Part shown: positions 1,975 through 61,635 of the stretch, one piece after another
Position numbering within the stretch: position 1 is the stretch's first letter
How the letters are laid out: every line of letters begins with the position of its first letter
IMG/VR virus record: IMGVR_UViG_3300047471_000616
Span: 1 to 64,000 of that record
DNA length: 64,000 bases
Strand: one strand, 5' to 3'
Origin: a virus
Made by a program: the position numbers and the translations under genes
The notes under the pieces: model-generated
The model's database searches: none
The model's input: the letters and a program-made list of their open reading frames with translations, nothing else
Told to the model about the DNA's origin: nothing

Positions 1975-3696
1975 TCACGACTGCAAATGTGGCCACATAT
2001 CATCAAGGCGAGCAGGCAGGAACTTGCCGTTTTCTATGCGTGACTTCACCCGTGGCATCAATAATTGATCTTCAGGGGAATGAACTTCGCAGAGCACCGG
2101 CCCTTCATTCATCAGTACGTTGGTAACCCCCTGCACCAGATTAGATTCGCCGGTCAGCCGCATCGCCGGGATACCAAACGCCGGAGCTGCCTCAAAGAAG
2201 TTGGCACAGGTCAGATCAGAATTTACACCGGCTATGGACTCACGGCCAAAATGGGTGTTCTGCGTGAACCGCATGGTCAGGTAACCCTTGTTGCAGAACA
2301 CGAAGATTTTGACCGGTATCTGGTGGTGGGCAACGGTCTGCAGTTCCTGCAGGTTCATCATCAGGCCACCATCGCCGTTCAGGCTGATGGTCTGCCGCCC
2401 AGCGCCGCCCAGACAGGCCCCTATGGCACCGGGGAGGCCTATACCCATGGCTGACACGCCACCTGAATGCAGCAGCCTTTGTCGGCCATTGAGGGGCATG
2501 GACTGCATGGCTGACAGCACGGCCACCCCGACGTCAGCCACGATTATGGCGTCCTGGTCCATGAGTTTGGCCAGCACTTCCATGAAATAGTAAGAATTGA
2601 CCCCCTTGCTGGTGTCGCGGTACTCAGCCTGCATCACCGGGTATTTTGCCTTCCAATGCCTGCATGTCGCCAGCCACACTGGGCAGGTAAAGTTTGGACT
2701 TTCATCCAGAAGTGCAGTCAGAAAATCCTTGGCGTCGGCAACAATTGGCAGATCAGTCCTGATGGTTTTCTTGGTGGTCTCAGCCGAGTCAATATCCACT
2801 ACAATCAACTTGGCTTTCGGCGCAAACAGCTCCTTGGTGTGACCAATAACCGGGATGGTCAGCCTGCTGCCAATGACCAGCAGCACATCAGCTTCTTGAA
2901 CCGCGAAGTTACCGGCCCGGTCCCCCATCAGGCCAACACGGCCGATGTAGTTGGGGTGATTCGTCGGGACCAGGTCAGTACCGCCCCACGCAGTCACAAC
3001 CGGCAGCCCGCCACGGGCAATCAGAGAAATAAGTTCGTTCTCAGCCCCAGCTAGATGGACACCATTACCTGCCAGGATCAGTGGTCTCTCTGCTTTATTT
3101 AGCATTTCCAGGCAACGGGTCACCCCACTGACCGGCGTAGGGTAGAAATTGGGTGTGAATCCTTTTAATTTATCAGGGTCAACTTCTGCGTTTTGTACAT
3201 CAAGAGGAATTTCCACAAATACCGGGCCTTTGCGCCCTGTCGTGGCCAGGTAAACCGCAAATTCCAGTATATGCCGGATTGCATCCTTGTGCCGCACCGT
3301 ATCTGCGTACTTGGTTATGGGCTTGACGATACTGACCAAATCCAGTTCATTGGGGCCTATTTGCCGGGTACCGGTGCCGTCGATCATGGTGTGACTGGCC
3401 ACCTGACCGGCTATAATGAGCATCGGTACGCTGTCGACGTAGGCCCCTGCTACCCCGGTGAGTGCATTCGTGCCACCTGGGCCGGTGGTAACGTGCACGC
3501 AGGCCATTTTCCCGGTGACCCTGGCGTCCATCTCGGCAGCCATGGCCCCGGCCTGTTCATGATGGACTGCTATTACTTCCAAGCCGGGTTGGTGACAAAT
3601 TGCATCGTTAAGATGCATAGCCCCAGCACCACAGACAGCATAAACACGAGTAACATGCTCATTTAGGAACCTCGCTACGTACTCACTGACTTTCAT
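1975..3696 (-). CDS. Acetolactate-synthase-like ThDP-dependent enzyme of the polysaccharide-locus type
   Basis: This 573-residue protein has the full length and three-domain plan of the acetolactate synthase/pyruvate decarboxylase family. The catalytic Glu47 lies in the segment VHHEQAGAMAA, and the ThDP/Mg motif runs from GDG at 441-443 to NK at 469-470. The C-terminal segment ending near LDDMWPHL resembles ThDP enzymes encoded in O-antigen and capsule loci rather than those for branched-chain amino acids. Related flavo-ThDP enzymes such as YerE add a two-carbon branch to a nucleotide-linked keto sugar; a role of that kind is inferred from the neighbours. No small regulatory subunit is seen. 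Its ATG overlaps the stop of the radical SAM gene (ATGA), so the two are probably translationally coupled. Confidence 0.85.
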   Translation of the reverse strand: MKVSEYVARFLNEHVTRVYAVCGAGAMHLNDAICHQPGLEVIAVHHEQAGAMAAEMDARVTGKMACVHVTTGPGGTNALTGVAGAYVDSVPMLIIAGQVASHTMIDGTGTRQIGPNELDLVSIVKPITKYADTVRHKDAIRHILEFAVYLATTGRKGPVFVEIPLDVQNAEVDPDKLKGFTPNFYPTPVSGVTRCLEMLNKAERPLILAGNGVHLAGAENELISLIARGGLPVVTAWGGTDLVPTNHPNYIGRVGLMGDRAGNFAVQEADVLLVIGSRLTIPVIGHTKELFAPKAKLIVVDIDSAETTKKTIRTDLPIVADAKDFLTALLDESPNFTCPVWLATCRHWKAKYPVMQAEYRDTSKGVNSYYFMEVLAKLMDQDAIIVADVGVAVLSAMQSMPLNGRQRLLHSGGVSAMGIGLPGAIGACLGGAGRQTISLNGDGGLMMNLQELQTVAHHQIPVKIFVFCNKGYLTMRFTQNTHFGRESIAGVNSDLTCANFFEAAPAFGIPAMRLTGESNLVQGVTNVLMNEGPVLCEVHSPEDQLLMPRVKSRIENGKFLPARLDDMWPHLQS

Positions 3697-4850
3697 AGGA
3701 ACCCCATGTGCGGGGGCGGGGGCGTATCCTGGAACGCAACCTGACCCTTTACGAACTTGTCCAGCCAGGAATTGGAGTTGGTCTGCAGGCAGTTTTCCCC
3801 GCAGTCGGTGGAAGCATCAAACTCGTCGCTGGCAAGGTAGTTCAGCACTTCCCAGTAGCGGTCGCTCTGGTAAATGTCGCGGAAGCGGTCACGGGTGATG
3901 TTGCCGATGTGAAACTTGGAGTAGCGGGAATTGAACTTCTGCCCGCAGGGGGCAATCAGGCCGTTGCCGGACATTTGCAGGATGAAGGGCGGGCCATAGC
4001 AGCGTTGGTAGTCGCGCTTGCCTTCGTCCTGGATGCGTGACCATTTCACTGCCACCCTGAAGCTGTCATCACTGAGGGCTTCAGCTTCCTGGAACAGCGG
4101 GTATAGCTTGCTGTACTGCCGGTAATCAACGTCCAAGTCACCATCAACGGAGTTAGCACAATGCTTCATGATCGCATAGTCTGGCCTGATTTCTTTAGCG
4201 AGACGGGCGAAGGGTACGATCTGATCACCATCCTTTGGCATCACGACAAACTGCATGTTGATGTTCACCGGCAGGTTGTCCCGCCGCTTGATTTCTATAG
4301 CCGCTTTTATATTGTTAACCACCCGGTCGAATAGAGGCTGTTTCAGCCCCATGATTTGTGCCCAGCGAGCCTTATCACCACCGCTAAAATTAAAGCGGAG
4401 GTAAGTAAGACCAGGAAGTATTTGCTCCAAAACTGCTGGAGTGAGTTTAAGACCATTCGAGCTCGTGCCGATTTCAAGGCCACGCTTTGCTCCATATTCA
4501 ACCGATTCGGCGAAGTAGGGAACTTCAGTACTTTCCCCGTCACTGATGAGGCTGACACCCTTGACTCCTATTTCTGCTGCATCGTCAAGATAATCAAAGG
4601 CATTTTGTCGCGTGATGACGGTATCTTCACTAGCCTGTAAGGAGGCGTAGCAGAAGTTACAGGCGGCGGCGCACTTTCTGGTCCAAGCCACGTCCATGGT
4701 AATAGGGGCGATGCGGTCGCCTCGTTGCCATGCCAGGACGCGATCCCGGTACCAACCGATCTTAGTCCCATCGAGTTGCAGGGAATAAACCTCTCCTGCG
4801 GGTTTACCAGAAACGACATGATTGAAAAACTCCGGGATTGGTGTGCTCAT
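3693..4850 (-). CDS. Radical SAM protein with SPASM/twitch-like C-terminus
   Basis: The 385-residue protein carries the radical SAM cluster motif CX3CX2C at Cys60, Cys64 and Cys67 (CAAACNFCYA), followed by a glycine-rich segment (ISDGEST) that would contact S-adenosylmethionine. The last third has further cysteines (RCYGPP, APCGQKF and DCGENC) in the spacing of a SPASM or twitch domain holding an auxiliary Fe-S cluster. The reaction cannot be read from the sequence. Given the ThDP enzyme, sugar kinase/nucleotidyltransferase and methyltransferase beside it, a radical step on a nucleotide sugar is more likely than peptide maturation, although I cannot exclude the latter. It overlaps both neighbours by ATGA. 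Confidence 0.85.
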   Translation of the reverse strand: MSTPIPEFFNHVVSGKPAGEVYSLQLDGTKIGWYRDRVLAWQRGDRIAPITMDVAWTRKCAAACNFCYASLQASEDTVITRQNAFDYLDDAAEIGVKGVSLISDGESTEVPYFAESVEYGAKRGLEIGTSSNGLKLTPAVLEQILPGLTYLRFNFSGGDKARWAQIMGLKQPLFDRVVNNIKAAIEIKRRDNLPVNINMQFVVMPKDGDQIVPFARLAKEIRPDYAIMKHCANSVDGDLDVDYRQYSKLYPLFQEAEALSDDSFRVAVKWSRIQDEGKRDYQRCYGPPFILQMSGNGLIAPCGQKFNSRYSKFHIGNITRDRFRDIYQSDRYWEVLNYLASDEFDASTDCGENCLQTNSNSWLDKFVKGQVAFQDTPPPPHMGFL

Positions 4851-5047
4851 AGTTTGGCTCGTTGTTCTGTGGTCATGGCGTTGCGCAGCTTGCTGTCGTC
4901 GCCACGCTTTTCCTGAAACACTTCTATGCGCAAGCCGGTCAACCGGCGCAACGTGCGTTCAAAATCCAGCATTGCGGCATTACGGGCAGCGACGGGTACG
5001 TCGGCACCAAACCTTATAAGGGCATGCAGCGCCGGGATTTCAACCAT
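4847..5047 (-). CDS. Small protein of the sugar operon, unknown function
   Basis: This 66-residue frame lies between the glycosyltransferase and the radical SAM gene. Its ATG at 5047 overlaps the end of the glycosyltransferase by 8 bases, and its TGA overlaps the radical SAM start by ATGA. This tight coupling is the main evidence that it is real. The product has a short hydrophobic-amphipathic N-terminal half (MVEIPALHALIRFG) and a charged C-terminal half rich in Arg and Lys. There is no signal peptide, cysteine motif or recognisable domain. It might be an accessory subunit of a flanking enzyme (inference). Confidence 0.6.
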   Translation of the reverse strand: MVEIPALHALIRFGADVPVAARNAAMLDFERTLRRLTGLRIEVFQEKRGDDSKLRNAMTTEQRAKL

Positions 5048-6179
5048 CCTTGAGGTCCTTCAGTATCTTGGCAGCTCGATGTTCCCACAAATGCCTGGAC
5101 TGCACTACCTTGAAAGCCTCAGCAGTTGCCTTTTCCCGTGCTTCGTGATTGTCCAGCCAGTACTGCGCCTTCGCCTTGAAGTCCTCAGGAGTGAACACAC
5201 CATAGTGGACGTCAGGCTCAAAGCTCTCAGTCAGCTGCCCGACACAATTTCTGGGCGTGGTATGGCTCATGATAAAGCAGCCCATGGCCATGCAGTCCAG
5301 TACCCGTGAATGAATGCCAAACCCCGTTATGTTGACGTGCAGGTTGATCCTTGCCCGTTGGAAGGCGTTATACAACACTTCCGTGTCATTGGTGTGTGGT
5401 TGAACCCACTCAGCAAATTCAGGGTAGTGTTCCCAATTGCCGCCACGGATCTCACACTCTTTGGAAACTTCAAGCATCTTCCTGGCAATGGCCAGCCGGT
5501 CCAGCAGTCTTGAATATTGTACCACCATCCATTTGACTTCCTGGGATCTGTTCTTGAAATGCCCAGCCCAGTCAAATCCCAGGTCCTCCCGCTCAAGCAA
5601 CTCTTTAATGCGGGCGTACATCCCCAGCGGGTCCAATTCGCCACGCAATGGGGTGTAATACTCCCTAAGCAGCCGCTTCACTACTGCCGACCAATAACCT
5701 TCCAGGCCCTCTATCTGATCAACAGGCGGGGGTATGTAAGTGCACAGTGAAAGGTCCAAACCGGGTGTCTTGCGTGGCCTGTTCAGCAGCAAGGGGTCAA
5801 CGGCGTCTGCCAGTGAGCCACGCCAGTGTGGGCCTGACTCGTCTACCCCAACGCTGCGCCCATCCCCAAGGGTATAAATGATGTCGCCGTCCAGGGATTG
5901 TGCTTCGTAGGCGTCAAGCCTGGGGACTTTGTTACCGTGCGGCCAGCTGATCAGGTCTTGGACCCAGGTAATATACCTGACTTCTGGTGCCAGGTACTCG
6001 GGGCGGGCTATGTCAACCCCCAACACTACATCTGCCTGGTTCAGCCGATCATCGTGACCAGACATCATGTAGACGATGTACTCCTCCTTTGAAGCCTTTA
6101 CTACCCCACTAGCCAATGCTGCCAGCATCCTGGCCCGGTAATGGGTCATCATGTCAGTAATTAGGAAGAACCTACGCAT
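5040..6179 (-). CDS. CgeB-like family 1 glycosyltransferase
   Basis: The 379-residue protein has the two-part look of a GT-B glycosyltransferase. The C-terminal half contains the segment NAFQRARINLHVNITGFGIH followed by SRVLDCMAMGCFIMSH, which matches the nucleotide-sugar binding region of CgeB and GT1-type transferases. The N-terminal half starts with a beta strand and short helix (MRRFFLITD). I chose the ATG at 6179, which has GGTGGGG upstream, over a GTG at 6185. The donor is not known; the adjacent HldE-like and GmhA-like genes suggest a heptose or related nucleotide sugar (inference). The acceptor could be host lipopolysaccharide or a virion protein. Confidence 0.75.
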   Translation of the reverse strand: MRRFFLITDMMTHYRARMLAALASGVVKASKEEYIVYMMSGHDDRLNQADVVLGVDIARPEYLAPEVRYITWVQDLISWPHGNKVPRLDAYEAQSLDGDIIYTLGDGRSVGVDESGPHWRGSLADAVDPLLLNRPRKTPGLDLSLCTYIPPPVDQIEGLEGYWSAVVKRLLREYYTPLRGELDPLGMYARIKELLEREDLGFDWAGHFKNRSQEVKWMVVQYSRLLDRLAIARKMLEVSKECEIRGGNWEHYPEFAEWVQPHTNDTEVLYNAFQRARINLHVNITGFGIHSRVLDCMAMGCFIMSHTTPRNCVGQLTESFEPDVHYGVFTPEDFKAKAQYWLDNHEAREKATAEAFKVVQSRHLWEHRAAKILKDLKDG

Positions 6180-6196
6180 GCACACACCCCACCGAG

Positions 6197-7366
6197 TTAG
6201 TCTACATACTTTGACGGGTTATCGGCCTGGTACTGCTTGACGGTCCTGCTCGCTTCGCAATCCACCATGTCAGCCAGTGCCACCATTTCCTTCGGCATCC
6301 AATCATGCGCAAATACGGTTTTGCTGTTGAGTACCGTTTCCATGAACCATTGAATAGCTTTCTTTGTTGGGGTTTGCCGCACCAAATCCAATCCTTCAAG
6401 GAAGGTGGCATGGGTCAGAGCACGGCCACGATGCACCGACCAGGTGCTGAGGTCCCCCCTGCAGGGCGTTTTCTGGTACAGAGCCTGCAGGAAATGCCGC
6501 TGCGGGCACATGATCCGGATAACAGCAGGGTTCAGTTCCAAAAGCTTGGTTGCCCACTCCATACTGGGGCGCGGCCCCCACCAGCACCGGCTCTCCCCAA
6601 GTTCCTTGATCGGTTGTGCTGCATAATTGAGCGAGTAGAAATATTCATGCGGATGCACATCCAGCCAAGTCATGTAGCGGGTAATCCATGCATCGTTCAT
6701 TTCCTGCATGGACCCAATGCTGAGTACGACGTCGCTTACTCCCCATACCCTTTCTAGCTTCTCGGCGGGCACCAGCAGTATCTTGGCATCTGGGGGTACG
6801 GTATCAATGCAATAAGCAACCTTATCACCAAATATCGCCCGCAGATTTACCTCAGAAAAGTACAGGGACTCAGGCAAGTCAATGATTACGTAGTGATCCA
6901 CCGGGAAGTAGAGGCACCAAAGCCGGGCCATGGCCCCGTCACCACCACCGATCTCAATTACGTTCCTGGCATTTGGCACATGGCTGCGAATGGTAAAAAG
7001 TGAATAAAGATGCCAGAAAAACATGTCGCTGACTTGAATTTTGCCGTCATTCGCCAGCGTTTCAGGCAGCGACTTGGGATTATCGGTCATTATGTCAAGA
7101 AAATCATTGAACCAGGGGAATTCATGACGAAGAATGCCGAGACAGGCACCAAGCAGTTGTGGGTCTGCCTTTTCCCGGTGTGAGAATGGTAAGGCCCTGG
7201 AGTTTTGAGCGAAGTGCAGTACCTGGGTGGTGTCGGTGAAACTGCCGATCACCCTGCGCATTTCCCTGGCCCACTCATACCAGCGGCCATAGTCGGGGAT
7301 TTCCTTGCCGTCGGTGGCGGCATGAAAATGGGCAGCTGCCAGTTCAAGAATGCTCTGTTCACTCAT
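6197..7366 (-). CDS. Putative sugar O-methyltransferase, SAM-dependent
   Basis: The 389-residue protein has a Rossmann-type SAM site in its middle (NVIEIGGGDGAMARL), followed by the acidic strand end VIIDLPE that would hold the ribose hydroxyls. The helical N-terminal region and overall length fit the family of putative sugar O-methyltransferases found in surface polysaccharide loci. It overlaps the end of the SIS isomerase gene by 8 bases and sits 17 bases upstream of the glycosyltransferase start, so it belongs to the same transcript. It would methylate a hydroxyl of the operon's sugar, which often caps or disguises a glycan. The substrate is inferred from context only. Confidence 0.75.
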   Translation of the reverse strand: MSEQSILELAAAHFHAATDGKEIPDYGRWYEWAREMRRVIGSFTDTTQVLHFAQNSRALPFSHREKADPQLLGACLGILRHEFPWFNDFLDIMTDNPKSLPETLANDGKIQVSDMFFWHLYSLFTIRSHVPNARNVIEIGGGDGAMARLWCLYFPVDHYVIIDLPESLYFSEVNLRAIFGDKVAYCIDTVPPDAKILLVPAEKLERVWGVSDVVLSIGSMQEMNDAWITRYMTWLDVHPHEYFYSLNYAAQPIKELGESRCWWGPRPSMEWATKLLELNPAVIRIMCPQRHFLQALYQKTPCRGDLSTWSVHRGRALTHATFLEGLDLVRQTPTKKAIQWFMETVLNSKTVFAHDWMPKEMVALADMVDCEASRTVKQYQADNPSKYVD

Positions 7367-7949
7367 TCAATGCCTGCACACCCGACTCAACACGCGCACG
7401 CTCCATGGTTAATTCATCAACAATCTGGTGCAGAATGATCTGATGGGTCAGTTCGACAAAGCCGTACCGGTGTGACGGCACCCAGAAGTTGATATCGCCG
7501 CAGCCACGCAGTCGGTTGTTATGGTCAAAGCCGCTGAAGGTAAAGACCTGAACCCTGCCAACGTGTCTGGCTGCCTCAACTGCATTGATGATATTTGCAG
7601 ACTCACCGGAACTTGAGATTGCCACTAGAATATCACCCGGCATGCCATAATACTGTATCTGTTTGGCATAGACCTGAGAGTAACCGAAATCATTCGCCAA
7701 ACAAGTCAGTACAGAAGGGTCATTGCATGCCGTGGCGGCAACGTGAGCGTTCTTTGACAGGTCTATGGCCATATGACTGGCAATCGCGGCTGAGCCACCG
7801 TTGCCAACCAGCATGATCTTGCGCCCTTCGTAACGGGCCGCCTTGAAACGCGAGCAGACGTACGCAATGACGTCCTGGCAGGCACAACCGTCGTAGTTAG
7901 TTACCTCGGTCCTGTGGTGTGCCGCAGCAAGCTGCCCGAAATACGTCAT
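7359..7949 (-). CDS. gmhA: SIS-domain phosphosugar isomerase, GmhA-like
   Basis: The protein of about 196 residues is a single SIS domain. The phosphate-binding segment GNGGSAAIASH and the second motif AISSSGES are both present, and the length matches sedoheptulose-7-phosphate isomerase GmhA (about 190 residues). GmhA converts sedoheptulose 7-phosphate to D-glycero-D-manno-heptose 7-phosphate in the cytoplasm. I chose the ATG at 7949, which overlaps the stop of the kinase gene as ATGA; an in-frame GTG at 7961 is the alternative. Its pairing with an HldE-like gene supports the heptose assignment, but related SIS proteins act on other phosphosugars, so the symbol is by similarity only. Confidence 0.75.
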   Translation of the reverse strand: MTYFGQLAAAHHRTEVTNYDGCACQDVIAYVCSRFKAARYEGRKIMLVGNGGSAAIASHMAIDLSKNAHVAATACNDPSVLTCLANDFGYSQVYAKQIQYYGMPGDILVAISSSGESANIINAVEAARHVGRVQVFTFSGFDHNNRLRGCGDINFWVPSHRYGFVELTHQIILHQIVDELTMERARVESGVQALNE

Positions 7950-9307
7950 TTCAGCAGCCACTCAAGGTTCTTGATGATGTCGTTGCGGCCGACGTGCTGG
8001 CGGTGGCCTAGGATGGCAGTTTTAAGTCCCCCAGCCACGTTACCAACGAAAGCTGCCATTTCTACATCAAGACCAGCAGCTATTAGAGGTGATGCCACAG
8101 CAAGGAAAGCATCTCCAGCCCCCATAGTATCAAAACCGCTGTCAGCAAAAGCGGGAATATCCTTAGGAGGGCCAAGAGAAGGCGCATAACTGACTGAACC
8201 ATAGCGGCCTCTGGTGACTGTGACGGTCTTGGCCTTGGTATACTGTGATAGTTTGGTCATGACACCAAGTAAAGGCCCGTCCTGGTCACCAGCAGCCATC
8301 CTGGCCTCGGGTTCGTCAACACACACGTAGTCGGCGCGTTCGTATTTCTTGACTGAATTGAAACCCCAGTTACCGGCGTTGGACTGCGCGGTGACCGCTA
8401 AGAACTTGGCCTGGGAAAGCGCCTTGCGGTCCACTGCATTCAGCAAGCCATGACCAAAATCGTACACAATGGCCACATCACAGGCTTGGATGGCACCGTT
8501 CCGCCTGGCTGCCCACAGTGCCGGGTCTGACTTGGGGGGCAGTTCCCGTGCTGAGTAGATTTCAAACAGCTTGCGTGAGAAGTCAGCGTCCACATACCGG
8601 GTTTTAGTTATAGCATCATCGCTGGTCGTAATGTTTACCAGGGGCCAATCCCCATGCTTGGCCGCCGCCATCACCCCGCCTTCAAACCGCTCCTCGGTCA
8701 CAGCCACGGTGGCAAGGATGAACTCCTTAGAAGGCTTTGCCAGGGGCTTGACATACCGATATTCGTCAATAATGGTTTCACCAACGAAGGCGATCCGGAG
8801 TTTGTCGGCTTTTTCAAAGGCAGCCAGCACAGAATCCAGGAAACCACGGCGTCTGGCGGTTTCCAGGTAGGCAAGAGTAGCCTCAGGCAAGCGGACATTG
8901 CGCAATAACCTGGTGCTGGACCACTTTTCACTGGTGGTGATGTAAAATCTACCTCCCACACCCTCAATGGCAGCTATTTCGCTGAGCAAACCGGGGTCAT
9001 TGGAGCCGACGTAGTCACCACCCTTGGCGTAGACAGCAGGTTTGACCTGAGAAATGATCTCAGCGGCGGTTCCTGACTCGCTGATTATGACAGCGTCAAC
9101 GCAGGCCAAGGCCAGCAACGCTTCCCTGCGTTGTTCGGCGCTGAATTGTGGCCGACCGTGACCCTTGTTGACGTGTTTATCGGCTGTGATGCTGACGACC
9201 AGCCGATCACCCAGCGAGCGAGCCTCCTGAAGGTGCCGGATGTGGCCCAAATGCAGAAGATCGAAGCAACCATGGGCCAAAACAGTTCGCGAAGCAGCTT
9301 GCAGCAT
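7946..9307 (-). CDS. hldE: Bifunctional sugar nucleotidyltransferase / PfkB kinase, HldE-like with swapped domain order
   Basis: The 453-residue protein contains two domains. Residues 5-140 form a cytidylyltransferase-like fold with GCFDLLHLGH (HxGH at 19-22) and the downstream segment VYAKGGDY typical of RfaE/HldE adenylyltransferases. Residues 165-453 are a PfkB sugar kinase with the signature DTMGAGDAF at 393-401, where the Asp is the catalytic base. In Escherichia coli HldE the kinase comes first, so the order here is reversed. The expected products are a sugar bisphosphate and then an ADP- or other NDP-sugar. The phosphatase (GmhB) and epimerase (HldD) of the pathway are not in the window and may come from the host. 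It starts 3 bases after the coiled-coil gene. Confidence 0.8.
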   Translation of the reverse strand: MLQAASRTVLAHGCFDLLHLGHIRHLQEARSLGDRLVVSITADKHVNKGHGRPQFSAEQRREALLALACVDAVIISESGTAAEIISQVKPAVYAKGGDYVGSNDPGLLSEIAAIEGVGGRFYITTSEKWSSTRLLRNVRLPEATLAYLETARRRGFLDSVLAAFEKADKLRIAFVGETIIDEYRYVKPLAKPSKEFILATVAVTEERFEGGVMAAAKHGDWPLVNITTSDDAITKTRYVDADFSRKLFEIYSARELPPKSDPALWAARRNGAIQACDVAIVYDFGHGLLNAVDRKALSQAKFLAVTAQSNAGNWGFNSVKKYERADYVCVDEPEARMAAGDQDGPLLGVMTKLSQYTKAKTVTVTRGRYGSVSYAPSLGPPKDIPAFADSGFDTMGAGDAFLAVASPLIAAGLDVEMAAFVGNVAGGLKTAILGHRQHVGRNDIIKNLEWLLK

Positions 9308-10363: not shown

Positions 10364-10567
10364 TTACCCTCTCTTGGCCAACCTGCTGGTGATACCGGCA
10401 CCTTCCACTATGTGAGAAATGTGGAAGCCGTCAGGGTCAAAGTTTTCATCCAGGAGAAGCAGCCATTCCCCGTCGATCTCAACCGAGACCTTGATGTTGC
10501 CCAGGACGCGGTCGCTGGTCTTGGCCGCGTCAAGATGAACCGCAGTGATCACAACGGGGGTTTTCAT
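10364..10567 (-). CDS. Small conserved-type phage protein, unknown function
   Basis: The 67-residue product is a compact alpha/beta protein without cysteines (MKTPVVITAVHLDAAKTSD at the start, a strand EWLLLLDE in the middle). The ATG is preceded by AAGGAG and overlaps the stop of the cold-shock gene by ATGA. I do not recognise a family. Confidence 0.6.
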   Translation of the reverse strand: MKTPVVITAVHLDAAKTSDRVLGNIKVSVEIDGEWLLLLDENFDPDGFHISHIVEGAGITSRLAKRG

Positions 10568-10806
10568 GACGGCTCCTTGGACTCAACAAGGCTGATGTCT
10601 ATGGCAAACTTGCCCTTCTGGCCGGTGTCTATACGGAACTTCACCTTCTCTCCCTCCAGCAGGCAGCGGTTGATCCCTGACTTGCGCAGCTGGTTGGCAT
10701 GCACAAAAACGTCCATTCCGCCCTCGGGCAAGCTGATGAAACCAAAGGCTTTCTGAGCATTGAACCATTTAACTGAACCGGTAGAAAAGCTGTTGTCTGC
10801 ACTCAT
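10564..10806 (-). CDS. Cold-shock domain protein, CspA-like
   Basis: The 80-residue protein is a single cold-shock domain. It starts the OB fold with GSVKWFNAQKAFGFISL, which contains RNP1 (KAFGFI), and continues with RNP2 (VFVHANQL). Such proteins bind single-stranded RNA or DNA, melt mRNA structure and can act as antiterminators. Its place in a transcript that already begins with an RfaH-like antiterminator suggests help with expression of the long operon (inference). The Shine-Dalgarno AGGAG precedes the ATG. Confidence 0.85.
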   Translation of the reverse strand: MSADNSFSTGSVKWFNAQKAFGFISLPEGGMDVFVHANQLRKSGINRCLLEGEKVKFRIDTGQKGKFAIDISLVESKEPS

Positions 10807-10815: not shown

Positions 10816-11661
10816 CTAAGGATTGGCAATCACCTGGCCCAGCTTGGTGGTCACATCGGCCAGCGTACCAACCACGTAGTACACCACCCACGAATGACGG
10901 CCAGCCGCTATTGGGGCAGCGCCAAAGACGTTTGCATCCCACTTGTTGCTGTTGCCGCCAGCGCCCATCCAGGCGTTGTAGCCCCCAGTCGGGCTGTAAA
11001 CTCCTATGGCGTGGGCAAGGCTGGCATCAGCCAGGACCAGCGGCTTGAAACTGCTGACGATCTTGCTGGGGTCGTAAGGGGCCGAAGGGGTATAAGGCAG
11101 CACCGTCAAGGAGCCGTTGTCCCAGGCGTAGAGCTTGTTCAGGCCAAGTGCCACGTAGCCGGTCAACCCCTCAACTCCGGCAGTAGCGTGTGCCGCCGCC
11201 AGCGTGACCGTCACATCGTGGCGCACCAGATTGACCACCCCGTGGTAGTCCACTTCTATGCGCTTATCAATTTGATCGGCTGAGTAAGTCTGCCCGTTAA
11301 AGGGCACCCAATAGGCCGGGCTGACCGATGTAGACAACACCTTGCCGCTGACCGTGGCACCCAGCACCTTGCTGGGGGTACCCTTGGACGAACCGGCTTC
11401 GGTGGGGTTGTTACCCTCACCACCACCATCCAGCTGATAGGCAGTCTGCAGTTCGCGGCCCAAATCACTGGCATTGATGTATTCAAGACCACCCCAAACA
11501 AGAGAATAAACCGAACCGCCGTGGCTGCTGCTGGTTTTTATGGTCAGAGCAGAACCATTGACTTGCCACACCGTATCCGCTGGCGGGCAGACCGACAACG
11601 CCAGCTTGCGGGTGGCGTGCCACGCTTTTCCTAGTTTAGAATGACGTGCAATTTTTACCAT
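10816..11661 (-). CDS. Beta-rich protein of unknown function directly behind the ops element
   Basis: From the ATG at 11661 the product is 281 residues; an ATG at 11718 would add 19 residues. I favour 11661 because the ops element occupies 11669-11680, which the longer form would read through. Neither start has a Shine-Dalgarno. The N-terminus is basic and the rest is rich in Gly, Ser, Thr and Val. A segment around GGLEYINASDLGRELQTA and NNPTEAGSS recalls a bacterial exported family with galactose-mutarotase-like folds, but I cannot name it with certainty. No cysteine pair or catalytic triad is evident. A carbohydrate-binding or virion role would suit the operon (inference). Confidence 0.6.
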   Translation of the reverse strand: MVKIARHSKLGKAWHATRKLALSVCPPADTVWQVNGSALTIKTSSSHGGSVYSLVWGGLEYINASDLGRELQTAYQLDGGGEGNNPTEAGSSKGTPSKVLGATVSGKVLSTSVSPAYWVPFNGQTYSADQIDKRIEVDYHGVVNLVRHDVTVTLAAAHATAGVEGLTGYVALGLNKLYAWDNGSLTVLPYTPSAPYDPSKIVSSFKPLVLADASLAHAIGVYSPTGGYNAWMGAGGNSNKWDANVFGAAPIAAGRHSWVVYYVVGTLADVTTKLGQVIANP

Positions 11662-11668
11662 CAGACGA

Positions 11669-11680
11669 CACGCTACCGCC
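11669..11680 (-). promoter_or_regulatory. ops element (RfaH recruitment site)
   Basis: The minus strand reads GGCGGTAGCGTG, identical to the operon polarity suppressor sequence that recruits RfaH to paused RNA polymerase in enterobacterial surface-glycan operons. The core GCGGTAGC can form the small non-template hairpin known for ops. It lies 60 bases after the stop of the RfaH-like gene and 7 bases before an ATG that lacks a Shine-Dalgarno. One exact 12-base match is expected about 0.008 times in 128 kb of two-strand sequence at equal base frequencies, so its position is unlikely to be accidental. Confidence 0.65.
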
Positions 11681-11740
11681 GCTAGGACACTTGGAAAAGA
11701 TATCCTACCGGCGGCCATTTATCTGGTTTACGCACCCCAC

Positions 11741-12220
11741 TCAGGCCGCTGTGAGCAGCCTTTCCTCTATTTCTACCATACAAGAACGGCCCAGCAATTC
11801 AGCCAGGACCTTTACCCGGTCATGCACCGATTGACCCTCATAGCAAAGCAAAAGCCCCGCCAGGGGGCCTTCTTGGCATTTGACTTTGGAACCTTTACGG
11901 AAGCGTGGCGGTGCCACCAGCTGGTACAGCCCGTTTTTGTCTTCCCTGGCTTGTATTGTTTCTATGACCTGATCAGGTAATAGTTGCGGGCCAGAGTCAG
12001 CCATCAGCAGGTAACTGATCCCACGGGTGCCGCACAATGAATGCCACACCTGCTCCAGCTTCACGAAGATGTAACGGGGAAACAAGGGACGGACTACCGC
12101 AGCAACACCGGGTTTCTTGTGCTCGTATTTTGGGTAGTAAAAGGTAAAGCCCTGACGCTGCAGATTGACTGCGGCGATGCCCTCATGGTTGGGCTTTGTC
12201 ATTGCTACGAACCAAGACAT
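11741..12220 (-). CDS. RfaH/NusG-like transcription antiterminator
   Basis: The 159-residue protein has the NusG N-terminal domain, with MSWFVAMTKPNHE, then PLFPRYIFVKL and TRGISYLL, which match the conserved NGN segments of RfaH. A KOW-type C-terminal domain follows (KGSKVKCQEGPLAGLL). RfaH binds the beta-prime clamp helices at ops sites, prevents pausing and Rho termination, and brings ribosomes to messages lacking Shine-Dalgarno sites. The ATG at 12220 is preceded by AAGGGTG. It heads a minus-strand block of more than 12 kb and is divergent from the plus-strand early genes. A specialised RfaH-type protein is more likely than a general NusG because of the ops site beside it. Confidence 0.85.
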   Translation of the reverse strand: MSWFVAMTKPNHEGIAAVNLQRQGFTFYYPKYEHKKPGVAAVVRPLFPRYIFVKLEQVWHSLCGTRGISYLLMADSGPQLLPDQVIETIQAREDKNGLYQLVAPPRFRKGSKVKCQEGPLAGLLLCYEGQSVHDRVKVLAELLGRSCMVEIEERLLTAA

Positions 12221-50606: not shown

Positions 50607-52194
50607 GAGCGTTGAGTTAGAGAACTTCAGGTCCTACCGTGGCAAGCATAGTATCAAGCTACCAACTGAACCCGGCCTCTACCTGCTTACCGGCCGTAAT
50701 GAAGTTGAGCCACGTCTCGGAACGAATGATGTCGGCAAGAGTACTCTCCTAGATGCCATATTTTGGTGCCTGTACGGGCGTACTTCCCGTGGCCTGAAAG
50801 CTGCCGATGTGGTCAACTGGGATGAAACCAGTTGCAGCGTCACCGTAGGGATGTGGCTCAGCGACGTGCCGTTGATAGTCAAGCGCACGCAAAGCCCTAA
50901 CAGTCTGCAGCGCAGCAATGGAGCGGTGCCACTCCACCCAGTCAGCCAGGATGATCTACAGAAACGCCTAGGACTAGGCCCCGACGCCTTCCAATACGCA
51001 ATGATGCTGCCGCAGTTCGGTGAGAGCTTCTTTGACCTGGCACCAGCAGCCAAGCTGACCCTGTTCTCACAGATCATGGGCCTAGATTACTGGCTGGAAA
51101 AGAGCCAGGAAGCTGCAGAGACGGCTGGTGAAATCTGGGCTGAAATAGAAGAAGCCAATCACGAAGAGGGCAGGTGTGACGCGCAGATTGAGATGATAAA
51201 TGTTGATCTGCAGCTGCTTGGCGGGAAACAGAAGGAATTTGTCGAAGCACAAAAGCGCGTAATTGCGACATTGGGCAAAGACAAAAATGAATTAAAAGCC
51301 GCCCAACGTAAGACCGCTGAGGCCATTGATTTTGCAGAAAAGGCCCTGCTGAACGCAACCAACAAGCTGGCCAAGATAGAAAAAGGCACGAAGGTGTGCC
51401 CTACGTGCCAGCAGACCATACCAAACTCCAAAATGAAGGCTGACGAAGCAGCCCTTGAGAAAAACCGCGGGGACTTTGAGAGGCAGCTGGTCAGGCTAAG
51501 AAGTGACCAGGCTGTCGACAGTAGTAAACTCAGTCAGATTGAGAAACACATTGCAGGTGAAACCAGCCGCGCTAACCCCTACGGTGAACAAATCAGACAA
51601 AAACAGGCCAGTCTGGTTGCTTGTAAGAAGCAGCAGGCTGACCTGATTTCACAGATAGAAGCAGCTGAGCAGGATCACGCTGCAGTAGACTTTTGGGTAG
51701 GTGGCTTCAAGCGTGTCAGGCTGTTCATAGTGGAAGAAACGCTGCGCCAGCTAGAGCTGGAAGTGAACAACAACCTGAGCAATTTAGGGCTGACTGATTG
51801 GAGGATAGAATTTGATGTGGAGCGGGAAAACAAATCAGGCGGCATCACCAAGGGCTTTGTGGTGCTTGTCTACCCCCCTGGGAGACCCGAGCCGGTCAGG
51901 TTTGAAGCTTACTCTGGTGGGGCTACTCAGCGGCTGCGTATGGCCGGGGACCTTGGGCTGGCCAACCTGATCATGCTTCGCGCTGGGCTGACCAGCGCGG
52001 TTGAGTTCTTTGATGAACCCAGCAGGCACTTGAGTACAGAAGGGCAGCTGGACCTGGCTGAAACCCTGATGCAGCGTGCCCTAACTGATAAGAAGGTGAT
52101 CTATCTCTGCGACCACAATCTCATAGATTTTGGCTTCACCGGCACCCTTACGGTAGTAAAAACGGCTGCGGGTTCGCGGCTTTCCTACGGATAG
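50593..52194 (+). CDS. SbcC/Rad50-like ATPase (T4 gp46 type), TTG start
   Basis: The 533-residue protein starts at TTG, 14 bases inside the SbcD-like gene, with FQIESVELENFRSYRG. Walker A is GTNDVGKST, the ABC signature is AYSGGATQRLRMA and Walker B is VEFFDEPSRHL. The short coiled coil carries a zinc hook CPTC near residue 275. It partners the nuclease encoded just before. Its last 47 bases overlap the convergent GcrA-like gene. Confidence 0.85.
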   Translation: MFQIESVELENFRSYRGKHSIKLPTEPGLYLLTGRNEVEPRLGTNDVGKSTLLDAIFWCLYGRTSRGLKAADVVNWDETSCSVTVGMWLSDVPLIVKRTQSPNSLQRSNGAVPLHPVSQDDLQKRLGLGPDAFQYAMMLPQFGESFFDLAPAAKLTLFSQIMGLDYWLEKSQEAAETAGEIWAEIEEANHEEGRCDAQIEMINVDLQLLGGKQKEFVEAQKRVIATLGKDKNELKAAQRKTAEAIDFAEKALLNATNKLAKIEKGTKVCPTCQQTIPNSKMKADEAALEKNRGDFERQLVRLRSDQAVDSSKLSQIEKHIAGETSRANPYGEQIRQKQASLVACKKQQADLISQIEAAEQDHAAVDFWVGGFKRVRLFIVEETLRQLELEVNNNLSNLGLTDWRIEFDVERENKSGGITKGFVVLVYPPGRPEPVRFEAYSGGATQRLRMAGDLGLANLIMLRAGLTSAVEFFDEPSRHLSTEGQLDLAETLMQRALTDKKVIYLCDHNLIDFGFTGTLTVVKTAAGSRLSYG

Positions 52195-52645
52195 CCATAG
52201 CCGCAGTTGCATGTTCTTTGCAGTAGACCTTACCCGCAGATGGTGCCCCGCAATACTTCTTGTCCTTGGCGTCATGGTCATTCCACAGCGGCCAATGACA
52301 CGTTTGGGTGGTCAACCCCATGAGATCGCACGGATCACTGGTTGACACTTCCTTGGGTTGGGTTGCTTCGGCACACATATCATACTCTGGCGCAAAGGCC
52401 GCGTAGGTCCTGTAAATCATCAGCCTGGGGCGTACCCGTCTAGGATTGGTAATAGCTGGTGTATATGGCTCGCCACTCATTCGCCTGCCCAGGCGGTGAA
52501 CCTTGCCAACTACGGCGTTTCTGGTTGCCCCAAGGATAAGGGCTATCTGGTTGCCTGAATGCCCGGCGTCAATAAGTCGGTTCAATTCCTTTACTTTTTC
52601 TTCGGTCCACTGGTTTATACGTCCGTTTGCATGTGCTTCAGTCAT
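52148..52645 (-). CDS. GcrA-like transcriptional regulator
   Basis: The 165-residue protein has an N-terminal helix-turn-helix (QWTEEKVKELNRLI, then NQIALILGATRNAVVGKVHR). The C-terminal signature is QTCHWPLWND...KYCGAPSAGKVYCKEHATAAM, matching the cysteine/histidine end of GcrA. GcrA is an alphaproteobacterial cell-cycle factor that binds sigma70 RNA polymerase and methylated GANTC promoters. A phage copy could redirect host transcription. AGGGTAAG precedes the ATG. It is the last gene of the right-hand minus block and overlaps the SbcC gene tail to tail. Confidence 0.8.
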   Translation of the reverse strand: MTEAHANGRINQWTEEKVKELNRLIDAGHSGNQIALILGATRNAVVGKVHRLGRRMSGEPYTPAITNPRRVRPRLMIYRTYAAFAPEYDMCAEATQPKEVSTSDPCDLMGLTTQTCHWPLWNDHDAKDKKYCGAPSAGKVYCKEHATAAMAIRRKAANPQPFLLP

Positions 52646-52670
52646 TGTTTCTTACCCTGATTGGTTAAGC

Positions 52671-53324
52671 CTAATGCCCAATAAACCGCACACCAATGGA
52701 TGCTACAAGCACAATGATGGACCACACGGCTCCTATGGCCCAAATGCGCCCCTGGAAGTTGGAGCTGACATTTTCCAACGTGCTTATCCTAGTTTCCATC
52801 GAATTTCTCAGCTGATCCGTTGCTGTAATTCTATTGTGTTCAAGAGACGAGACCTTTTCGTCCAGATTGTTAACAATAGTGCCTAGCTCACGGCGAACCG
52901 AGTCAACGGCTGCCTGTCCTTCCTTAATGGTCCACATCAAACCAGAGAGATCAGATAGTGATTTTCTGAACTCGTTCTGCGCTTCGTTGCGAAGCTGTTG
53001 TGCACCTTCGGCTTTATCCACCGCCTTTTCAGCGGCGATCAGCGCGGCATTCACCGCTTTCTCAGCTGCTGCTAGGGCAGCTGTAACGCCTGTCTGTTGG
53101 GCTTCATATCGTTCGCGAAGTTGCAGCGACAGGTCGCCGAACCGCTGGTTAATATACTTCTCAAAGGTGGTGAAATTCCAACCACCGGCCTCCGACGGCA
53201 AGGAGACCGTAGGCTCTGACATCCGCCAGTGCCCACCACGGTCTTTTACCAAGTCAACAGCTTGCCGAAGCTCCTTGATATTTTTTCTCAGGTCGTCAAG
53301 ACCATTTTCCTTATCATCGCCCAT
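52671..53324 (-). CDS. Coiled-coil protein with C-terminal membrane anchor
   Basis: The 217-residue product has a helical charged body with repeated AAEKAV words (about 85-110) and a C-terminal hydrophobic helix (IWAIGAVWSIIVLVASIGV). A tail-anchored coiled coil near lysis genes could be a spanin-like or membrane-organising protein. No lipobox or signal peptide is present. Confidence 0.6.
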   Translation of the reverse strand: MGDDKENGLDDLRKNIKELRQAVDLVKDRGGHWRMSEPTVSLPSEAGGWNFTTFEKYINQRFGDLSLQLRERYEAQQTGVTAALAAAEKAVNAALIAAEKAVDKAEGAQQLRNEAQNEFRKSLSDLSGLMWTIKEGQAAVDSVRRELGTIVNNLDEKVSSLEHNRITATDQLRNSMETRISTLENVSSNFQGRIWAIGAVWSIIVLVASIGVRFIGH

Positions 53325-53353
53325 GGATGCTTCTCATGCTTCATTGGAGTTTC

Positions 53354-53641
53354 TCAACGCTTTAGATGATCCATAAGCTGTTGGTGCAACCAAACGTTCT
53401 GGTCGGCGGTGCCGGTGAACTTCCCCTGGAAGCCAAGCTGTTTCGCCATGGTTGCCCTGGCTTCAAGGCTGCTGTCCCGCCCCATGAGTTTGAGCAGGTC
53501 CACCGTAGAATTGCGCCAATTGAGATTGCCCCCGGTGGTAGCGGCCTTGTCGTCCAAGTACTTGGCTTTTTCTTCTGCGGTAGGAGTTTTCTCAAACAGC
53601 TTCTTGAAGAACGCCGCAATTTCAGCGAGAATGTCCATCAT
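53354..53641 (-). CDS. DUF3597-like protein
   Basis: The 95-residue product has the DUF3597 pattern: LNWRNSTVDLLKLMGRDSSL, then ARATMAKQLGF and NVWLHQQLMDHL. The family is found in proteobacteria and phages and often lies near cell-wall enzymes. Its function is unknown. A short amphipathic helix (AEIAAFFKKLFEK) leads. Confidence 0.7.
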   Translation of the reverse strand: MMDILAEIAAFFKKLFEKTPTAEEKAKYLDDKAATTGGNLNWRNSTVDLLKLMGRDSSLEARATMAKQLGFQGKFTGTADQNVWLHQQLMDHLKR

Positions 53642-53647
53642 AGCCTC

Positions 53648-54388
53648 CTATAGGGATGCTATGGCAGCATCCAGGTCTGCTTCCTTGACGCCTTCAGGCG
53701 AAGCACCATTGGCCAGCATGTACTCTTGGCTGAAGTAAGCCACACCACCAAGGAAGTACTTCTCCCAGAACTTGTTGGTAACGGCTTGCAACCGCCCCCA
53801 GGTCACCACAATCCTGAGGCCCTTGGAATTTCTTCCCACCAGAGGCACGTAGTGCCCACCAACGGGGGTCCCGGTAGTGGCCGACCACGGCTTTTCATTC
53901 TCAAACTCGGTCATTGCCGTGTCGGGTACATTGAACCCGCAACCACAGGCCCCAAAGATATAAGCAGCCAGGTCCAGGTCGGTGTTCCTGTCGATGCTGG
54001 CAAACGCCTTGACCTTGTGGAAGCTTCCACCAGAATCCTCAAGCCCAGTGGCAACCCGCCATTTGGCTACAGCTATAGGGTCCAGCCCCTTGTCCTCACC
54101 ACCGGTCAGGGTCATGTACTGACTTACAATCGTCTGGTTGTTGAAGTCTGGCATCGGCCTTTGTGTAGCCAACGCCCAGGTCATGATCTCATGAGCAGCA
54201 CCAGCCAGGACACAATCCCCGTACTGGTCATTGGCCAGCATCTGCCAGGGCACGTCGTTACCTTTGACGTGCCCATAAGTAGCGGGCACTTTAGGAAGCT
54301 GTTTCCGGTTGATGAAATCACCAAACTTCAGCTTGATGGCTTCTTCACGCCACTCCTTCATTCCCAGTCTTAGGGTCATGACACTCAA
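53648..54388 (-). CDS. Papain-like cysteine peptidase candidate
   Basis: The 246-residue product has NDQYGDCVLAGAAHEIMTWA with a candidate catalytic Cys59 and a later GGHYVPLVGRNS with a candidate His, followed by a Trp-rich segment. This is the order of a C1-type peptidase. Similar proteins occur in phage lysis and tail regions. Activity is inferred from these two motifs only. Confidence 0.6.
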   Translation of the reverse strand: MSVMTLRLGMKEWREEAIKLKFGDFINRKQLPKVPATYGHVKGNDVPWQMLANDQYGDCVLAGAAHEIMTWALATQRPMPDFNNQTIVSQYMTLTGGEDKGLDPIAVAKWRVATGLEDSGGSFHKVKAFASIDRNTDLDLAAYIFGACGCGFNVPDTAMTEFENEKPWSATTGTPVGGHYVPLVGRNSKGLRIVVTWGRLQAVTNKFWEKYFLGGVAYFSQEYMLANGASPEGVKEADLDAAIASL

Positions 54389-54654
54389 GTCCTTGTTTGG
54401 ACTGGTGGTTGACTTGGCGGAGGTGGGGGCGGTGGTGCGGCGTTGCGCACCTTTTCCGCAGCATTAAGTGCATCATCAACAATCTTGAGCAGGACTTGCC
54501 TGCCTTCTGGGGATTCAAGCTTCTGCTGGGCTTGTTCACGGTACATGCTGGCTGGCCACGTACCCATCCACATGTCGATCATCCTAGCAACATTGTCGTG
54601 CACAGACTTAGCAGCAGCGATCTGCTCAGCCTGAGTAGCCTGTCCCAGTCTCAT
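54385..54654 (-). CDS. Small helical protein with proline tail
   Basis: The 89-residue product is helical for 70 residues (MRLGQATQAEQIAAAKSVHD at the start) and ends in a run of eight prolines and QTRT. It is coupled by ATGA on both sides. The function is unknown. Confidence 0.6.
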   Translation of the reverse strand: MRLGQATQAEQIAAAKSVHDNVARMIDMWMGTWPASMYREQAQQKLESPEGRQVLLKIVDDALNAAEKVRNAAPPPPPPPSQPPVQTRT

Positions 54655-54980
54655 TGGACTGTTGCCTCCACATCCACCGGCTTGCCGTTCACGTAGACAA
54701 CAAAGTGCACGGTAGTACCCTTAGTGGGCTCTGCACCAAGCTTGCCCGCCGACTTGGCGGTTTGGTAACCAGAGCAAATCAGGCTGACGATGGCGCTGAT
54801 GCTCATGGTTGGGTCAAGCCCAACGATTGCAGCAATTGTTGCTGCGGTCACGGCAATGCCACAGGCAGTCTTGATGGCGTCCTGGACCTTTACCGGGTCA
54901 ATGGCACAGCCACCACCCATCCCCAGAACTGGAAGGGTAGCACCAGCTAAAAGCAATGCGCGTCTGTTGATGGGGGTCAT
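54651..54980 (-). CDS. Small lipoprotein
   Basis: The 109-residue product begins with a lipoprotein-type signal (NRRALLLAGATLPVLGMGGG then Cys) including a twin-arginine-like RR. The mature part is Ala/Ile-rich and ends in a beta segment (VHFVVYVNGKPVDVEATVQ). An envelope-located lysis or exclusion role, such as an outer-membrane spanin, is possible, but the C-terminal length is unusual for one. Confidence 0.65.
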   Translation of the reverse strand: MTPINRRALLLAGATLPVLGMGGGCAIDPVKVQDAIKTACGIAVTAATIAAIVGLDPTMSISAIVSLICSGYQTAKSAGKLGAEPTKGTTVHFVVYVNGKPVDVEATVQ

Positions 54981-54981
54981 T

Positions 54982-55164
54982 TCAGTCTCCTTTTAAGCGT
55001 CGTTCGACGCTATAAGTGGTCCACCATTGTGGGTGTTCACGCAGATGTTCTGCTGCATTAGTGGCATCTTCCTGGGTAGCGTAAGTCCCGAGTACCTTTG
55101 CGTAAGGCCAAGGCACCCTTTGGTAGGACACCACTACCCAGATCGTATTGTCTGGATCAGTCAT
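54982..55164 (-). CDS. Small protein, unknown
   Basis: The 60-residue product starts MTDPDNTIWVVVSYQRVPWP and has a strand-helix-strand plan (TYATQEDATNAAEHLRE). It resembles the N-terminal plans of the 15356 and 20983 genes. It overlaps the peptidase-like gene upstream by 8 bases. Confidence 0.55.
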   Translation of the reverse strand: MTDPDNTIWVVVSYQRVPWPYAKVLGTYATQEDATNAAEHLREHPQWWTTYSVERRLKGD

Positions 55165-55669
55165 TTAGAAACTCCTGTATGTTCTCGTGTGTCAGAAATG
55201 GGTTTAGAAGTAGCAGAGTATCAGCTGGGGTAATACGGTTCTTCGCTACAACCAACGAGTAAGGAAAGAAATTTGCTTGCTCAAGACAGTATACAATCAA
55301 TTCACTGCAAAACCAAGAATCTGTCTGACGCCAATCCCGGTCATGGGGTTGGTCACTTAGGAAGTCCCACAAAGCACCATTGTCAAACGGCTTGCCAATT
55401 TGCTTGTGCGCCACTTCCATGAAAGAAGTATAAATACTATCTGATACCTTGAGGCTGGCTATTTTTGGCGTCCCCTTGTACGGCCACGGTGGATTTGGCC
55501 GTATTCTTACCCCTCCTGGGTCATTTGATTTGTGATCCTCGCCGCTAACACCCAAAAGCCCCGTATCCAAGAAAATATCAACGTGGGAAAATGGTGAATG
55601 GCACAGTCTGCGGATGATGCTGCTGGCAAAAGCAGTGCTCGTAGAGTACTGAATAAGGATCTCAGCCAT
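55157..55669 (-). CDS. Permuted papain-fold (YiiX/NlpC-like) hydrolase
   Basis: The 170-residue product has a candidate catalytic His29 in CHSPFSHVDIFL and a later Cys in WFCSELIVYCLEQ. In this order (His before Cys) it matches the permuted NlpC/P60 or YiiX type. These enzymes cleave amide or ester bonds in the cell envelope or lipids. It lies directly behind the holin gene in the lysis cassette. Confidence 0.7.
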   Translation of the reverse strand: MAEILIQYSTSTAFASSIIRRLCHSPFSHVDIFLDTGLLGVSGEDHKSNDPGGVRIRPNPPWPYKGTPKIASLKVSDSIYTSFMEVAHKQIGKPFDNGALWDFLSDQPHDRDWRQTDSWFCSELIVYCLEQANFFPYSLVVAKNRITPADTLLLLNPFLTHENIQEFLND

Positions 55670-56023
55670 TTACCTACTATTGGCATATGGCTTGTATGGC
55701 TTAGGCCCTTCGTCCAGCTTAGTGACGTTTGGCACGTCGTCACTGTGCACCAAACTGGCAACAGCCTTGTTATACACCATCAGTTCCCTAGGAACCTGGA
55801 TCTGAATTTGCGGGTCAACATTCGCTGCTGATCTAAGCTTCGCTGCGTCGGTATGAGCTAGGAATGACCACACCACAGCAACGAGCCCAATAGCCACTGT
55901 TGTTACATCTGCAACCACCCCGGCGTCGCTGAATGCTGAAAAGCCTTTTGCTACCAGCCACGTACAGGCCATCGGGATGATTATGCGGAGAATGCCAATT
56001 ACCTGCTCTTGGTTTGGGTTCAT
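55670..56023 (-). CDS. Holin
   Basis: The 117-residue product has two hydrophobic helices (GILRIIIPMACTWLVAKGF and VTTVAIGLVAVVWSFLAHT) separated by a short turn, and a soluble C-terminal tail. The pattern matches holins of alphaproteobacterial phages. It sits between the alpha/beta hydrolase and a cysteine hydrolase, close to the endolysin. It would open the inner membrane at lysis. Confidence 0.75.
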   Translation of the reverse strand: MNPNQEQVIGILRIIIPMACTWLVAKGFSAFSDAGVVADVTTVAIGLVAVVWSFLAHTDAAKLRSAANVDPQIQIQVPRELMVYNKAVASLVHSDDVPNVTKLDEGPKPYKPYANSR

Positions 56024-56538
56024 GTGGTGTGCTCCATGATCCGCTTCATCTCGGCGAGGAACATATTTTGATCGTTCACGTCATAGTCGCCGGGGTGGGG
56101 AATGTGGTGTGGGGTTTTGTGGTAGCTGAGCGGGTTCATGGTCCCCAACGGCCATTTGTAAGCACCCAAGCCGGGAAACGGGAACGGGTTGTAGCTGTAG
56201 ATCAGGTGGGCAAATTTTATGTTCTTGTTTAGTGGGTAGCCCTTCGCACCGTAGATGCTTGCTTGGAAACCAAATGCCCCATCAATGGCCCGGTCGCCAA
56301 CATACTGACAGACAACTGCAACGTCACAACACCCCAAACTAGTACCACATACGAAAACACGACCAGCAGGAGGGAGCTTCTTGATAAGTACAGCAATGTT
56401 TGCGGCGTCGTAATCCTCGTAAGGGGAATCGTGCATGTTAATGCCGAGTTGTGCCATGCGCTGAGACATGACTCCTGCAGCTGGGTCGCTTCCCCATCTC
56501 CCCCACATGCCGCGCATATAGTAACCGTGCCAGTTCAT
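56020..56538 (-). CDS. Alpha/beta-hydrolase-like protein of the lysis cassette
   Basis: The 172-residue product has a nucleophile elbow GTSLG at 65-69 after a strand RVFVCG, as in alpha/beta hydrolases, but the protein is short. The aromatic- and proline-rich second half contains several His residues (HHIPHPGDYD) that might complete the triad. Being coupled to both the endolysin and holin genes, it may be an esterase aimed at the envelope, by analogy with mycobacteriophage LysB (inference). Confidence 0.55.
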   Translation of the reverse strand: MNWHGYYMRGMWGRWGSDPAAGVMSQRMAQLGINMHDSPYEDYDAANIAVLIKKLPPAGRVFVCGTSLGCCDVAVVCQYVGDRAIDGAFGFQASIYGAKGYPLNKNIKFAHLIYSYNPFPFPGLGAYKWPLGTMNPLSYHKTPHHIPHPGDYDVNDQNMFLAEMKRIMEHTT

Positions 56539-57155: not shown

Positions 57156-57156
57156 A

Positions 57157-57624: not shown

Positions 57625-57628
57625 TTGA

Positions 57629-58012
57629 TCACCAGGTCGTTGTGGCAGCTGCCATGTAATAAGTGGTCGTACCAACTACCAATGGAACAATCCTGGTGGC
57701 ACTGAAATTGGACGCCGTAAGTGCCACAGTTACGCCGCTAGTCACTGCGACAACAACGCTGGTTACAGATACGACGATGCCGGTTGGGGCCACCGGTATT
57801 GAAGAAGCAAAATTCCCGCACCAATAATCCGGCTGCACCAGGGGCCAGGGATAGTTAACCGTCTGCGTACTGGCAGCGACCCCAGGTGATGCTGACCGGT
57901 ATGGTTGCTCTGGTGCTGGCGCATTGAAGGAACAGCCCAAGGCACCAACAGCTACCCCAGCACTGACAGGAACCGACCTCCCATAGACACAATTGGAACA
58001 CTGATCAACCAT
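57629..58012 (-). CDS. Small protein with CxxC and WCG metal-type motif
   Basis: The 127-residue product has QCSNCVYG at the N-terminus, a further Cys (GCSFNAPAP) and WPLVQPDYWCGNF, the four-cysteine pattern of a common bacterial/phage family thought to bind metal or a cluster. The second half is a Val/Thr-rich beta region. It follows the tail fibre gene. Confidence 0.65.
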   Translation of the reverse strand: MVDQCSNCVYGRSVPVSAGVAVGALGCSFNAPAPEQPYRSASPGVAASTQTVNYPWPLVQPDYWCGNFASSIPVAPTGIVVSVTSVVVAVTSGVTVALTASNFSATRIVPLVVGTTTYYMAAATTTW

Positions 58013-58013
58013 A

Positions 58014-59108: not shown

Positions 59109-59109
59109 C

Positions 59110-61621: not shown

Positions 61622-61635
61622 GAACGTCGTGCCGA

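Follow-up and report, generated by a model that had tools for sequence, protein, structure and literature searches.

How late genes are controlled has been worked out for a small number of phages, almost all cultured. The closest described system for the locus reported here is RfaH of E. coli with its ops element. The non-template strand of ops forms a hairpin in which the C3:G8 pair closes the loop G4-A7 (PMC5995543). G5 and T6 are contacted by K10, H20, R23, and R73 of RfaH, and Q24 lies in a pocket (PMC5995543). A double swap of C3:G8 partly restored recruitment in E. coli, and the central GCGGTAGC bases were unimportant for pausing, the pause bases being the flanking ones (PMC5995543).

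An RfaH-type gene followed by an ops element was located in the window, the whole stretch of 64,000 nucleotides of viral DNA that was analysed (Table 1). The sequence-only reading had called the product an NGN-KOW protein closer to RfaH than to a housekeeping NusG, and profile searches bore this out. The protein matched Pfam NusG with 51.4 bits. The best NCBIfam model was RfaH (TIGR01955, 87.2 bits), against 36 bits for nusG (TIGR00922), and both scores were under the curated cut-offs of 144.5 and 135.7 bits, so that the RfaH equivalog level was not reached. The top chains in a phmmer search of the PDB were those of E. coli RfaH (E 2.7e-7), and ops-bound RfaH was among the top matches of a fold search. 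In the tree, the protein was placed with RfaH-type paralogues and apart from housekeeping NusG, with one E. coli NusG as the outgroup and modest deep support. It formed a phage-only clade with its five nearest relatives (support 99*), and the members shared 46-53% identity with it. K10, R23, Q24, T72, and R73 were kept, five of the six residues of the ops-contact set, and H20 was replaced by N. The NusG-like protein of a Microcystis phage was set aside, being without the ops residues.

The C-terminal domain, for which an alpha-hairpin or a beta-barrel had been envisaged, was predicted by AlphaFold2 with 81 homologues. The model comprised an NGN domain and a KOW domain in beta-barrel form, with a mean pLDDT of 92.8, by a method that may miss alternative folds. 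The position of the autoinhibition residue E48 was R, and an alpha-helical autoinhibited KOW with E48 was not found in this protein. Since a beta-barrel was predicted and E48 was absent, autoinhibited fold-switching is unlikely, and the protein is probably an open beta-barrel-KOW form and not a fold-switcher like E. coli RfaH. It should act like the open form of RfaH because of the same two features, and such a form should suit a factor encoded beside its own target (cf. PMC13015549).

The element GGCGGTAGCGTG begins 60 nt past the stop codon of the gene, as had been read from the sequence, and stands on the non-template strand of the operon behind it. It was letter-identical to E. coli ops, the 12-mer ops12 of PMC5995543, and was the sole exact copy on both strands of the window. 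From 4^12, a perfect 12-mer match at a given place in about 100 nt would have a chance of the order of 1e-5. The GCGGTAGC core was also present twice on the + strand of the phage genome. An exact 24-mer spanning ops gave no match in a search. The next ATG (11661) followed 7 nt on without a Shine-Dalgarno sequence, which agreed with the sequence-only reading; the same ORF could also begin at ATG 11718, in which case ops would fall within the coding sequence. The ORF therefore has two candidate starts. A database search returned no relative of it. No promoter was found upstream of the RfaH-type gene by simple scans, and a consensus scan for terminators and promoters was close to background.

The virus record holding the window has 96,020 bases. 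A 127-bp exact direct repeat was present at both ends (window position 1 and record position 96020), and the phage genome was taken as complete because of it. Replication genes were on the + strand at about 17 to 52 kb. Almost all remaining genes were on the minus strand, in a run that starts at 12,220, goes down to position 1 and, joined by the terminal repeat, goes on from 95,927 to 52,148. This late strand carried the terminase, portal, major head protein, tail, and amidase genes, and its part beyond the window (64001-96020) showed amidase, tail, major head protein, portal, and terminase. The RfaH-type gene and ops head a late module of about 56 kb, mostly on one strand. A sugar operon had been proposed as the target. 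Glycan genes did follow, and they were merely the first ~10 kb of this module, with no lasting strand change between them and the virion genes. The acetolactate-synthase-like TPP enzyme encoded among them had many relatives in IMG/VR (PHROG 11199). Small ORFs formed an array at 12290-13673(+), divergent from the RfaH-like gene and beginning 70 bases away; several of these ORFs resembled one another (MKLPLW.K...GK).

Table 1. Features of the RfaH-type locus and its late strand in window coordinates, with groups of related loci
Feature	Position	Strand	Remark
RfaH-type NGN-KOW antiterminator gene	11741..12220	(-)	159 aa; profiles, PDB, fold search
ops element GGCGGTAGCGTG	11669..11680	(-)	hairpin C3:G8, loop G4-A7
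First ORF downstream of ops	10816..11718	(-)	start ATG 11718 or 11661
Cold-shock protein gene	10564..10806	(-)	
HldE-like (PfkB + cytidylyltransferase) gene	7946..9307	(-)	begins sugar block
SIS-domain (GmhA-like) gene	7359..7961	(-)	
Glycosyltransferase-like gene	5040..6185	(-)	
Radical SAM/SPASM gene	3693..4850	(-)	
Acetolactate-synthase-like (TPP enzyme) gene	1975..3696	(-)	
Distal late strand, tail genes	52148..64000	(-)	
Terminase-linked ops loci, viral			L145, L146, L147, L148, L151, L164, L178, L191, L193, L208, L210, L211, L217
Distant-ops loci, bacterial			L241, L253, L259, L267, L275, L276

The element was then compared within the six-member phage clade. Loss of ops from phages that keep the gene was not what we found; the nearest relatives all kept the element, and an ops-like sequence was present 43-88 nt past the stop in 6/6 members. 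Its identity was 0.76, against 0.27-0.28 in the flanks, which were no more similar than random DNA (27%). The GGTA loop, G2, C9, and T11 were invariant. The conserved bases were those of the central GCGGTAGC, and the flanking pause bases varied. In the nearest homologous gene (phage record G012), GGTGGTAACGTG was located 60 nt past the stop and differed from ops only at C3 to T and G8 to A, with pairing kept. Two clade members, L144 and L145, which fall in different subclades of the tree, had T3:A8 in place of the hairpin-closing C3:G8, with the GGTA loop kept. This is a compensatory pair change. The element in L144 and L145 overlapped the start codon of the following gene, and it could partly reflect translation signals there. 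In L145, the ATG of a cold-shock-like gene seemed to lie within the element. A cold-shock-like gene was the first gene after ops in L144, L145, L146, and L148. Many relatives had a normal Shine-Dalgarno sequence just past ops, and the absence of one was not upheld as a general trait.

A wider survey was conducted in IMG/VR. A search with the window protein alone, which relied on narrow exact peptide seeds, gave no relative. A scan with a four-row alignment query gave 263 viral relatives, of which 80 were retrieved, and 61 non-redundant RfaH-like genes with 200 nt downstream formed the statistics set. The commonest of all 8-mers behind the gene was GCGGTAGC, found at 18/61 viral loci and behind 4/1287 control ORFs, an enrichment of about 95-fold. 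It was absent from the reverse strand, and Markov shuffles averaged 0.2. With the T:A form included, 20/61 loci bore the element; about two thirds of the viral RfaH-like genes were without an ops core in the 200 nt. The element definitions were fixed once the first matches had been seen, and a hold-out scan with a different query was run for this reason. It showed GCGGTAGC in 3/20 new loci, two of the three resembling a previously seen locus. The closest phage contigs (G019 and G035) were left out because the locus was not covered.

The residues of the protein were compared with the presence of ops. Q24 and T72 were present in 20/20 viral ops-bearing proteins, and K10 in 15/20 of them compared to 5/41 without ops. 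The bacterial proteins with no ops close by all had Q24 as well. An independent-pairs test of residues and ops had too few supported branches and was underpowered. Since the association was confounded by descent and Q24 occurred in ops-less bacterial proteins, it was consistent with recognition and did not prove it.

At 13 of the 19 other viral loci with ops, the gene for the terminase large subunit followed in the same orientation at a distance of 0.6-3.3 kb (Table 1). The first large gene after ops was, in other phages, the terminase and not a sugar gene. The terminases belonged to several PHROG families, which indicated a layout common to unrelated phages. Exact ops was also present in L175, where a sugar epimerase gene comes next, and in L176, whose protein matched plasmid-borne RfaH at 59-65%. 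Because of these features, the two loci may not be phage and were excluded from the terminase-linked count. Viral loci without ops were likewise terminase-rich, and Bradyrhizobium phage ppBjS10J-1 encoded an NGN gene, terminase, and portal consecutively without ops. Viral NusG paralogues thus commonly stood at the start of the late operon, and about one third of those in our sample were marked by ops. The phage relatives G009 and G010 had no NusG-family gene in records of 78 and 76 kb, which are perhaps incomplete; the module is therefore not general in the phage group of the window.

A second element, GCAGCGCGYT, was found 73-104 nt behind the RfaH-like stop at 12/61 viral loci, compared to 11/1287 controls (L152, L157, L158, L159, L161, L166, L167, L173, L174, L186, L188, and L212). 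This phage clade was without ops, had mostly E at position 10, and was mostly without Q24. Judging from these sequences, GCAGCGCGYT is a possible candidate for a second loading element and DNA specificity.

Chromosomal homologues were analysed in a set of 59 non-redundant bacterial genes, nearly all alphaproteobacterial (loci L224-L303). A core of the TGCGGTAGCGTG-type ops was found 45-94 nt behind the gene in 35/59 homologues and in 11/1560 controls; none was on the reverse strand or in the 500 nt upstream. The 8-mer CACCCGGA was likewise enriched behind these alphaproteobacterial genes. A separate bacterial clade was without ops near the gene; in several of its members an ops, perfect or nearly so, lay about 3.1-4.3 kb downstream (Table 1). 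The element with this core, being common beside these alphaproteobacterial genes, is not borrowed from enterobacteria.

We consider it quite likely that the late strand opens with a cis-acting, self-loading module for late-gene antitermination, made up of the gene and the element. Transcription would pass through the rfaH-like gene, and RNA polymerase would pause on reaching ops, 60 nt past the stop codon. The newly made protein would recognise the loop GGTA in the small hairpin of the non-template strand, bind the paused polymerase, and shut out NusG/Rho action. We infer that it could then stay on the polymerase through the sugar and virion genes, perhaps coupling translation. The result would be a delayed positive-feedback switch that resembles lambda Q in its logic and is built from an RfaH-type NusG paralogue.

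The same protein features would also allow a simpler loading mode, in which a monomorphic, constitutively open RfaH homologue loads in cis by proximity and ops is a strong pause aiding any NusG-like factor. The predicted beta-barrel KOW and the R at E48 agree with it, as do the many viral homologues without ops and the monomorphic RfaH homologues that act without ops and adjoin their operons (PMC13015549). However, it was the pausing-neutral central bases that were conserved while the flanking pause bases varied, the C3/G8 change was paired, and the ops-contacting residues were retained. We therefore regard proximity loading as unlikely. That the 12-mer is a chance match or functionless inherited filler has a negligible probability: a single 12-mer alone could arise by chance, and the core recurs on the + strand of this genome, but the enrichment over control ORFs with none on the reverse strand, the recurrence in bacteria and in the hold-out set, and the conserved footprint in the clade contradict it.

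Two other readings concern the host. The element might recruit a host RfaH homologue to the phage operon, with another or a redundant role for the phage protein. Ops often stands in cis at alphaproteobacterial chromosomal homologues, and G009, without a gene of its own, has CGCGGTAGCGTG ahead of its sugar genes on the late strand. This G009 site was not counted among the elements because it sits inside the end of a + strand gene. Yet in the viral set the element keeps a constant position right behind the phage's own gene, which makes host recruitment very improbable. We give equally little credence to a captured rfaH-ops-sugar cassette that serves the glycan genes only and has no late-gene role. 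Sugar genes do come directly after ops, and bacterial homologues are often beside envelope-glycan operons (PMC7593976), but the clade is phage-only, its other members have cold-shock and terminase genes there instead of sugars, and the strand does not switch lastingly between sugar and virion genes. The observation first made from the sequence was right, and its self-contained RfaH/ops circuit is likely right once the target is widened from a sugar operon to the late module and the mechanism is moved from an autoinhibited, trans-acting RfaH to an open, cis-loading form: the RfaH-type protein and exact ops stood, and autoinhibition in the style of E. coli was not supported.

The pair of gene and element is not confined to this phage. 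It recurs in many uncultured phages that are unrelated to one another, ahead of their packaging and virion genes, and so looks like an unrecognised late-gene switch. We lean slightly towards a widespread phage class of such switches, in which NusG paralogues would be paired with cognate cis DNA elements of at least two specificities, ops (GGTA, Q24) and GCAGCGCGYT. If this is true, a NusG paralogue that reads a DNA hairpin would be a new kind of late switch and would account for the escape of 50-kb phage operons from Rho. The C:G and T:A stems and the possible second element would offer a natural series of proteins and elements for testing how NusG paralogues gain specificity. Ops itself is not limited to enterobacteria, its core standing behind the chromosomal homologues of many Alphaproteobacteria. 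A search of the open-access literature, with subscription papers outside its reach, gave no report of phage-encoded RfaH or of ops outside Gammaproteobacteria.

Among known systems, E. coli RfaH/ops (TIGR01955; PDB 5ond, 8phk) shares the NGN-KOW architecture, the identical 12-nt ops, the same hairpin and loop, and most of the loop-contacting residues. In contrast to E. coli, the phage gene has ops in cis directly behind it and a late phage operon as the target, and its protein lacks E48, has a predicted beta-KOW instead of an alpha-hairpin, carries N for H20, and scores under the TIGR01955 cut-off. Monomorphic beta-RfaH (PMC13015549), TaA, UpxY, and LoaP resemble it in being encoded beside the target operon, and an open beta-KOW is expected. 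However, these are bacterial, and the monomorphic RfaHs act without ops (PMC13015549), which is conserved here. PHROG 6386 'transcription antiterminator' and WAX24484.1 of Bradyrhizobium phage ppBjS10J-1, annotated as a hypothetical protein, similarly offer an NGN-family gene that stands ahead of terminase and portal, but no ops lies behind that gene. Lambda Q and Xp10 p7 are also phage-encoded and act on host polymerase for read-through of long units, a function that the module described here would share. Unlike those unrelated proteins and loading signals, it would use a NusG paralogue and a non-template DNA hairpin.
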